48,539 bases of DNA, taken from TM7 phylum sp. oral taxon 351. GTDB taxonomy: Bacteria; Patescibacteriota; Saccharimonadia; Saccharimonadales; Saccharimonadaceae. The DNA is taken from the NCBI GenBank assembly GCA_007845165.1, contig SDRH01000001.1:1-48539 (forward strand), in the 5' to 3' direction. The notes below the pieces were generated by a model. The model was not told the origin of the DNA. It did not search any database and saw only the letters and a program-made list of their open reading frames with translations. Shown here in pieces: positions 4,058 through 33,869 of the stretch; position 1 is the stretch's first letter, and each line of letters starts with the position of its first letter. Made by a program: the position numbers and the translations under genes.

Positions 4058-4132
4058 GCGAGTGTCGTATAACGGCTATTATATTTCCTTCCCAAGGAAG
4101 AGACGAGGGTCCGACTCCCTCCACTCGCACCA
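4058..4132 (+). tRNA. tRNA-Gly(CCC), CCA encoded
   Basis: The 75-nt cloverleaf has a perfect 7-bp acceptor (GCGAGTG with CACTCGC), anticodon loop TTCCCAA giving anticodon CCC, T-stem GAGGG/CCCTC, discriminator A and an encoded CCA. The D-stem is weak, with a T-T mismatch, and the T-loop reads TCCGACT, with C where position 55 is normally T. A decoding tRNA is still the best reading. Its 3' end is the source of the repeats that follow. Confidence 0.9.
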
Positions 4133-4546
4133 GACCATAATAAGAAAGAGCATTTATGCTCTTTATTTTTATGGTCGCCTGTACGAGAAAACTTGCGAAG
4201 CAAGGTTACTCGCACTATTCCTCAAGTTAATAATTATTATTTTTTGTTTTATTTGGGGTGAGGCCGAGGGAGATTTTCTCCCTCCACTCGCACCAGACCA
4301 TAATAAGAAAGAGTATTTATACTCTTTATTTTTATGGTCGCCCGTCCGAGAAAGACCGCGAAGCGGGATTACTCGCACCAAATCAAAAAAATAAGAACGT
4401 TTACGTTCTTTATTTTTTTGATTGCCTGTACGAGAAAGTTTATTTATAAAATTACTTACGCCAGATTCTAAAGAGAAAGAATATAAATATTTTTTCTCTT
4501 TAGAATCGCCTGCATAAGAAAGACTACGTAGTAGTCTTACTCGCAC
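4133..4546 (+). repeat. Array of hairpin units ending in tRNA-Gly 3'-end copies
   Basis: Four units follow the tRNA: 4133-4215, 4296-4380, 4381-4463 and 4464-4546 (83-85 bp each), with an AT-rich 47-bp stretch plus another tRNA-end copy (4263-4295) after the first. Each unit starts with a near-perfect 43-44-nt palindrome (4133-4176, 4296-4339, 4381-4423, 4464-4507) with T-rich 3' arms like terminators. Next come GCCTGTACGAGAAA or close variants, a small variable hairpin, and a copy of the tRNA end, TTACTCGCAC(CA). The first two palindromes are almost the same; the third and fourth differ in sequence but keep the fold. No credible gene lies inside; a 125-codon minus-strand frame is a by-product of the repeats. 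Confidence 0.85.
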
Positions 4547-4590
4547 TATTTCTTTTTTATCCCACTTATTTGCAGAATTTGATGATAATG

Positions 4591-33218: not shown

Positions 33219-33308
33219 GGAAGTGTGTCCGAGTGGTTTAAGGAGCACGCCTGGAACGCGTGTATGCGGGGAACCGTATCGGAGGTTCGAATCCTCTCGC
33301 TTCCGCCA
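33219..33308 (+). tRNA. tRNA-Ser(GGA), CCA encoded
   Basis: A 90-nt class II tRNA: acceptor GGAAGTG/CGCTTCC, anticodon loop CTGGAAC giving anticodon GGA, a long variable arm (ATGCGGGGAACCGTATC), T-stem GGAGG/CCTCT, T-loop TTCGAAT, discriminator G and an encoded CCA. Its last 15-21 bases recur three times downstream. Confidence 0.96.
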
Positions 33309-33869
33309 GATTTAAGAAATGACTAGTTTACTAGTCTTTTTTTAAATCTAACGAGAGGATGAGAACCGCAGGTTCGACCGGACGACGAAGCGAGACAAAA
33401 GAAAATTTATTTTCATTTTGCGAGTGAGAAGGAACGGAAAGATTTCGCGAAGCGAAATTTTAATCCTCTCGCTTCCGCCATTAAAATAAAATAGACCCAG
33501 AGGGTCTTATTTTATTTTAACTTGTGAGAGGATGAGAACCGTAGGTTAGACCGGACGACGAAGCGAGACAAAAGAAAATTTATTTTCATTTTGCGAGCGA
33601 GGAGGAACGGAAAGATTTCGCGAAGCGAAATTTTAATCCTCTCGCTTCCGCCAGATTTAAGAAATGACTAGTTTACTAGTCTTTTTTTAAATCTAACGAG
33701 AGGGTGAGAACCGTAGGTTCGCCCGGACGACGAAGCGAACAAAAGACAAAAAGCTTGCTTTTTTCTTTTTGAGCGAGGAGGAACTGAAAGATTTTATGAA
33801 ATAAAATCTTCACACTCTCGCTTCCGCCATTAAAATAAAATAGACCCAGAGGGTCTTATTTTATTTTTC
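33309..33869 (+). repeat. Array of 172-176-bp units ending in tRNA-Ser 3'-end copies
   Basis: Three units (33309-33480, 33481-33653, 33654-33829) and a terminal palindrome (33830-33869). Each unit ends with CTCTCGCTTCCGCCA, the tRNA-Ser end. The opening palindromes alternate: type A (33309-33348, core ACTAGTTTACTAGT) and type B (33481-33520, core GACCCAGAGGGTC), then A again and B again. After the palindrome comes a segment partly complementary to the tRNA 3' end (CGAGAGGATGAGAACC), then a spacer with CGACGAAGCGA, and a small hairpin such as ATTTCGC-GAA-GCGAAAT. No coding gene is seen. The last type B palindrome can also terminate the minus-strand gene beside it. Confidence 0.88.

Follow-up and report, generated by a model that had tools for sequence, protein, structure and literature searches.

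Since 1978, tRNA-linked repeats (TLRs) have been known from Escherichia coli, in which 22 copies at ten loci have been recorded (Egan and Landy 1978; Rudd 1999, summarised in PMC8144298), and in which the class is defined by the identity of the last 18-19 bp of each repeat to the 3' end of the upstream gene (PMC8144298). For most of these repeats no function has been found, and an early claim of a phenotype was retracted (PMC8144298). The rRNA-linked E. coli TLRs are made as read-through transcripts, to which Hfq and CsrA bind (PMC8144298). Among them, RrA, RrB and RrF lie between dual rRNA terminators, belong to the TLR class, are transcribed when a first terminator is passed and end in a copied rRNA end (PMC8144298), a plan like that proposed for the arrays described here; they differ from these arrays in their linkage to 5S rRNA. 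In the open-access literature, TLRs have so far been described in E. coli and its relatives only. BIME/REP elements share with the present arrays a palindromic nature and can terminate transcription bidirectionally; they are not known to be tied to tRNA ends or to contain a copied tRNA end. Some attenuator candidates resemble rtT (PMC2965389).

The DNA analysed here (the window) is a stretch of 48,539 nucleotides from TM7 phylum sp. oral taxon 351, a member of the Saccharibacteria, and forms part of a 620-kb genome that is 83% complete. Within it, five tandem cassettes follow a tRNA-Gly(CCC) gene (Table 1), and their sequences suggest that they are quite probably TLRs, that is, structured RNA cassettes in the 3' tail of a tRNA transcript that would be produced by read-through. 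Copies of the tRNA 3' end (ACTCGCAC-type) begin at positions 4123, 4208, 4286, 4371, 4454 and 4539, and the units are therefore 85, 78, 85, 83 and 85 nt in length. The initial annotation had located the array and its content correctly, including the small hairpins CTTGC/GCAAG, CCGC/GCGG and GACTAC/GTAGTC; the array is more regular than that annotation described, and what it had read as a first unit of 163 nt proved to be two units that meet at 4208.

Each cassette follows the plan P, A, h, S', in which P is a terminator-like palindrome running onward from the CCA of the tRNA (with arms of approximately 20 bp in P1 to P4), A is a short antisense of the acceptor end of that same tRNA, h is a small hairpin, and S' is a new copy, with CCA, of the tRNA 3' end (S), often followed in turn by another palindrome or terminator. 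Unit 2 (4208-4285) departs from this plan in having a degenerate palindrome and a different type of hairpin (type III), which is also found behind tRNA-Gly in other genomes. The predicted fold of the whole array has an energy of -152.7 kcal/mol, as compared with -84.8 +/- 6.3 for shuffled sequences (z = -10.8).

Table 1. Features of the two tRNA-associated arrays, numbered as positions in the window.
Feature	Positions	Strand	Basis
tRNA-Gly(CCC), CCA encoded; 3' end is the first S	4058..4132	+	ARAGORN; Rfam RF00005, 54.9 bits
P1, terminator-like palindrome adjoining CCA	4133..4176	+	arms 90% complementary
A1 (GTACGAG), antisense of CTCGCAC	4181..4187	+	sequence, cassette alignment
Small hairpin h1 (CTTGCGAAGCAAG)	4192..4204	+	sequence, fold
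S' copy 1, decayed (ACTCGCACTA)	4208..4217	+	sequence
Unit 2, degenerate palindrome	4220..4258	+	sequence; paired in fold
Unit 2, type III hairpin, ending in exact 18-nt copy of tRNA 3' end (4278-4295)	4259..4295	+	sequence
P2, palindrome	4296..4339	+	inverted-repeat arms
A2 (GTCCGAG)	4344..4350	+	cassette alignment
Small hairpin h2	4356..4366	+	cassette alignment
S' copy 3 (ACTCGCACCA)	4371..4380	+	sequence repeat
P3, palindrome	4381..4423	+	inverted-repeat arms
A3 (GTACGAG)	4428..4434	+	cassette alignment
Small hairpin h3 (TTTATTTATAAA)	4439..4450	+	cassette alignment
S' copy 4, diverged (ACTTACGCCA)	4454..4463	+	sequence repeat
P4, palindrome	4464..4507	+	arms 95%
A4 (GCATAAG), changed together with S' copy 4	4512..4518	+	alignment columns 9/68, 10/67, 12/65
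Small hairpin h4 (GACTACGTAGTAGTC)	4522..4536	+	sequence
S' copy 5, decayed (ACTCGCACTA)	4539..4548	+	sequence
tRNA-Ser(GGA), carrier of the second array	33219..33308	+	ARAGORN
tRNA-Ser array, three long-form cassettes, period approximately 173	33309..33869	+	repeats; sub-threshold RF00391 matches

The second array of the window lies behind tRNA-Ser(GGA) and is built of a longer form of cassette, with 19-nt copies of the tRNA 3' end at 33462-33480 and 33635-33653 and an imperfect third copy that ends at 33829. Its four palindromes display two sequences in exact alternation (P1, P2, P1, P2), as if a block of two units had been duplicated. Elsewhere in the same genome the plan recurs behind Gly(TCC) and Pro(CGG), and in decayed form behind Pro(TGG). 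A scan of six neighbouring proteins (a response regulator, an FtsX-like permease, a methyltransferase, a metallo-beta-lactamase-fold protein, a SurA-like protein and a PH-domain protein) returned no cas protein, integrase or transposase, and a CRISPR, an integron or another array served by such a neighbouring protein was rejected on that scan.

Both arrays were assigned to the TLRs, the long form because its sequence and structure agree with the repeats of E. coli, and the short Gly form by its architecture and position only. The Gly array starts immediately 3' of the tRNA's CCA and on the same strand, and tandem cassettes number five behind Gly and three behind Ser, as compared with one to five directly behind E. 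coli tRNA genes. Identity to the upstream 3' end, which spans 18-19 bp in E. coli TLRs, extends over 19 nt in the first two Ser cassettes, over 18 nt in Gly unit 2 and over approximately 10 nt, with some mismatches, in the short Gly units. Kinship in sequence and structure was found for the long form only: the short Gly form has that brief tRNA end and no long-form core, and its homology to the E. coli repeats is thus drawn only from its architecture and from the sites in tRNA tails that it shares with the long form. In both organisms an antisense arm closes a multi-branched fold, and a terminator may stand in front (as at proK); the cassettes described here differ in belonging to another phylum, in following most tRNA types and in the long palindrome that begins at the CCA, and their short and minihelix-like forms are absent from the three E. 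coli loci examined (tyrV, tyrT and proK).

At the gathering score, Rfam models found tRNAs alone in the window. Below that score, the RtT model (RF00391), which represents the E. coli tyrT/tyrV repeats, matched the Ser cassettes at 33338-33480 and 33511-33653 over its full length (1-130) with 28.4 and 21.1 bits against a cut-off of 45, and these are the best places for that model in the entire 620-kb genome. RtT and the Ser cassettes have GAUGAGAA, GGUUCGA and the closing stem in common and differ in their hairpins and inner loops; the Gly cassettes were not matched, and permissive Rfam scans of that array produced chance matches and none to RF00391. The repeats behind tyrV, tyrT and proK of E. 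coli K-12 have the antisense arm at the front; GGATGAGAA (which tyrT replaces by GGGTGAGAA) leads to a first hairpin, and GGTTCGA, AGCGAG, and TAATCC with the tRNA end come after it, so that motifs and architecture are shared with the Saccharibacteria cassettes. A covariance model (R2), run directly against E. coli, matched weakly, yet its top four places were the four tyrT/tyrV repeats. Behind K-12 proL and proM no copy of the tRNA end was found; behind K-12 rrfB the last 18 nt of 5S were absent at up to 4 mismatches, and CTGCCAGGCATCAAAT was seen by eye to recur. A terminator separates tRNA and repeat at K-12 proK (L300), as in Saccharibacteria, and tyrT and tyrV have no comparably strong palindrome.

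Among relatives (mostly metagenome bins, analysed as the stretches around tRNAs and around model matches), the same plan was found behind Gly, Pro, Ser, Tyr, Gln, Arg, Asp, Glu, Leu, Ile, Val, Lys, Asn and Thr tRNAs; the named carriers belong to uncultured Candidatus Saccharibacteria and include one from sheep ileum and one from goat duodenum. An exact pattern of the short Gly cassette, applied to 40 relatives, matched its own genome only, because the sequence varies while the structure stays, and covariance models were successful. Within the genus, the model of the Gly cassette gave matches in 52 of 174 genomes, the strong ones behind Gly and Pro tRNAs, and that of the long form (a core of GACGACGAAGCGAG, hairpin and GAGCGAGGAGGAAC, followed by a second hairpin) found 120 of 170, with up to 14 copies each. 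The long form is rare outside the genus, and the forms behind tRNA-Gly and tRNA-Ser are present in other genera and families too. When nearly all tRNAs of three genomes were surveyed, 7 of 122 were followed within 600 nt by a 12-mer that repeats their own 3' end, as compared with 2 of 4,802 mismatched control pairs.

Individual loci display further variation. Arrays mix cassette types, and some cassettes are common to several species (loci L081, L082 and L085), a pattern that would fit gains and losses of cassettes between S copies that are identical. The core loop at L194, L198-L200, L045, L046, L063 and others contains a perfect Shine-Dalgarno-like AGGAGG, in subtypes GAGGAGGAAC and TAGGAGGTGAG; no start codon or open frame was noticed behind it. 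Two tRNA-Ser loci of one genome (L049 and L060, genome G011) carry a GTCGTCGTC-like sequence before the hairpin and CTCCTCC after it, which are complements of the usual purine-rich strands, together with several consecutive decayed S copies. Behind a tRNA-Gly(CCC) of another genus (L285, genome G303), two long-form cores stand in tandem with no tRNA-end copy between them.

The long form is closely associated with tRNA genes: of 90 matches examined, 79 lie downstream of a tRNA in the same orientation, at a median distance of 56 nt from CCA to core. A few matches have no upstream tRNA and some long forms lost the CCA-bearing tail, and the tail is therefore not always needed. A core variant (GGACGAGTGAGCGAG, hairpin, CGAGCCACGAGGAAC) lies in two genomes (L244 and L250, approximately 507-632) without a tRNA and directly after the apparent end of a protein-coding gene. 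Cassettes at L236 (approximately 430-680) and L083 (1501-1591) have no recognisable tRNA directly upstream, and one of them terminates in a tRNA-Leu-like 3' end; a rearrangement or a lost tRNA is possible there.

The antisense arms were found to fit their own tRNAs. At 62 long-form loci, the 8-nt segment that leads into the first hairpin was compared with nucleotides 59-66 of the tRNA in front, and 85% of positions were paired, as opposed to 63% with tRNAs for other amino acids; many arms are perfect over ten pairs, for example at Ile(TAT), Ser(TGA) and Tyr. In 26 of 77 cases the most closely related cassette stood behind the same tRNA in another genome, as compared with 3 expected from label shuffles (an approximately nine-fold excess), and in 4 cases it lay within the same genome, near the 1.8 expected by chance. 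Cassettes thus group by tRNA and not by genome, which indicates that they were mostly inherited with their tRNA and did not jump about; recent mobility or spread between sites was not supported by these counts.

The initial annotation had noted that both arms of the palindromes, and of the small hairpins, changed together, and had taken this to reflect selection on folding rather than neutral decay. The joint change was confirmed, and the interpretation was supported. In an alignment of six cassettes of this genome and one from a relative, paired changes affected outer arm, palindrome and small hairpin alike. The change in the outer arm is clearest in unit 5, where the S copy reads CTTACGC for CTCGCAC and the A arm GCATAAG for the GTACGAG of other units, such that six of the seven pairs persist and the A-C mismatch is the one seen elsewhere; the pairing across the palindrome (S-P-A) is conserved in this unit, and that with the next S' is weaker. 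Among 14 distinct Gly cassettes of the genus, 22 of 32 pairs changed on both sides and 94% of cells remained paired; among 38 long-form cassettes the corresponding values were 31 of 33 pairs and 98%. The covariation test that had been proposed at the outset was run in the form of a covariation score, and the observed score exceeded all 500 shuffles for both forms (0.58 against 0.21 for Gly, with slid controls at or below 0.11, and 0.548 against 0.167 for the long form), in a design in which kinship is partly controlled by the shuffles and slid controls, and in which model-made alignments are biased towards the structure of the model.

Strand-symmetric decay, or repair of palindromes as DNA, should produce G-T and A-C mispairs equally. 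In non-redundant palindromes the counts were instead 44 G-T to 17 A-C (p = 0.0007), and in the core stems of the long form 21 to 6 (p = 0.006); ordinary terminators behind other tRNAs, as a positive control, gave 57 to 24, and palindrome segments outside the terminator-like inner 12 bp gave 6 to 1, with small counts. These excesses favour RNA of the tRNA strand as the folding element over single-stranded DNA, the other possibility named by the initial annotation. The A arm displays no G-T excess against the tRNA end (23 to 36), a count that cannot decide the matter because the tRNA fixes one side (S) of the helix; for the same reason, the A arm could derive partly from copying.

In a rival explanation, tandem terminators behind a tRNA proliferated through slippage or recombination and became palindromic through template switching, serving termination only. 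It would account for the decayed copies at 4208 and 4539, for antisense arms that match the local tRNA without a G-T excess, and for the A- and T-runs, like those of bidirectional terminators, in approximately 75-80% of palindromes. Such neutral copying is nonetheless unlikely, since core stems unrelated to the tRNA covary, loop sequences are kept across 120 genomes and share motifs with E. coli, and G-T mispairs exceed A-C mispairs in palindromes and core stems alike. A small, non-autonomous mobile or integrative element (attachment-site or MITE/REP-like), inserting at tRNA 3' ends and duplicating them, would likewise explain the 18-19 nt end duplications, the occurrence of one core behind many tRNAs and its patchy presence, as well as a Ser(CGA) cassette (L193) whose antisense arm better fits another tRNA-Ser. 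We consider it very unlikely, given the locus-bound inheritance described above, the lack of a specific open reading frame between copies, and a scan of IMG/VR viral contigs with two cassette patterns that returned no match.

The antisense arm itself invites an account in terms of a tRNA-specific attenuator, in which, after read-through, the arm would pair with the tRNA 3' strand across the palindrome and misfold the pre-tRNA, and the copied end would release that misfold, such that the cassette acts as a switch on tRNA output. The arm does fit the tRNA end and the copied end alike, and in units 4 and 5 of the window it is the pairing across the palindrome that is better conserved; however, the antisense-tRNA helix displays no G-U excess, and the two pairings are indistinguishable because the copied and original ends are usually identical. 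We regard this account as quite unlikely. In its broadest version, many tRNA genes of the lineage would each be equipped with a dedicated RNA switch, with a separate cassette for each tRNA identity; the antisense arm would choose between the tRNA 3' strand and the copied end, and read-through would set the amount of functional tRNA. This version appears very unlikely.

If the cassettes are instead TLRs, as we prefer, most transcripts would end in the first palindrome and yield mature tRNA. A minority would read through, and the cassette would then fold in such a way that the copied end holds its antisense strand. With its acceptor sequence and CCA, that copied end would let the tRNA 3'-processing machinery cut or trim the cassette, so that a small tRNA-tail RNA is set free and the tRNA stays intact, and arrays would grow and shrink through recombination between identical 3'-end copies.

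On this reading, the TLR class is greatly expanded in Saccharibacteria, a distant and genome-reduced phylum, where it stands behind most tRNA types. The hundreds of natural variants, with arms that follow the tRNA, offer enough covariation to settle the fold and to show which elements are bound to the tRNA. If cells with genomes of 600-900 kb retain such tails, it would become directly testable whether the tails contribute to tRNA 3'-end formation or to the production of small RNAs.
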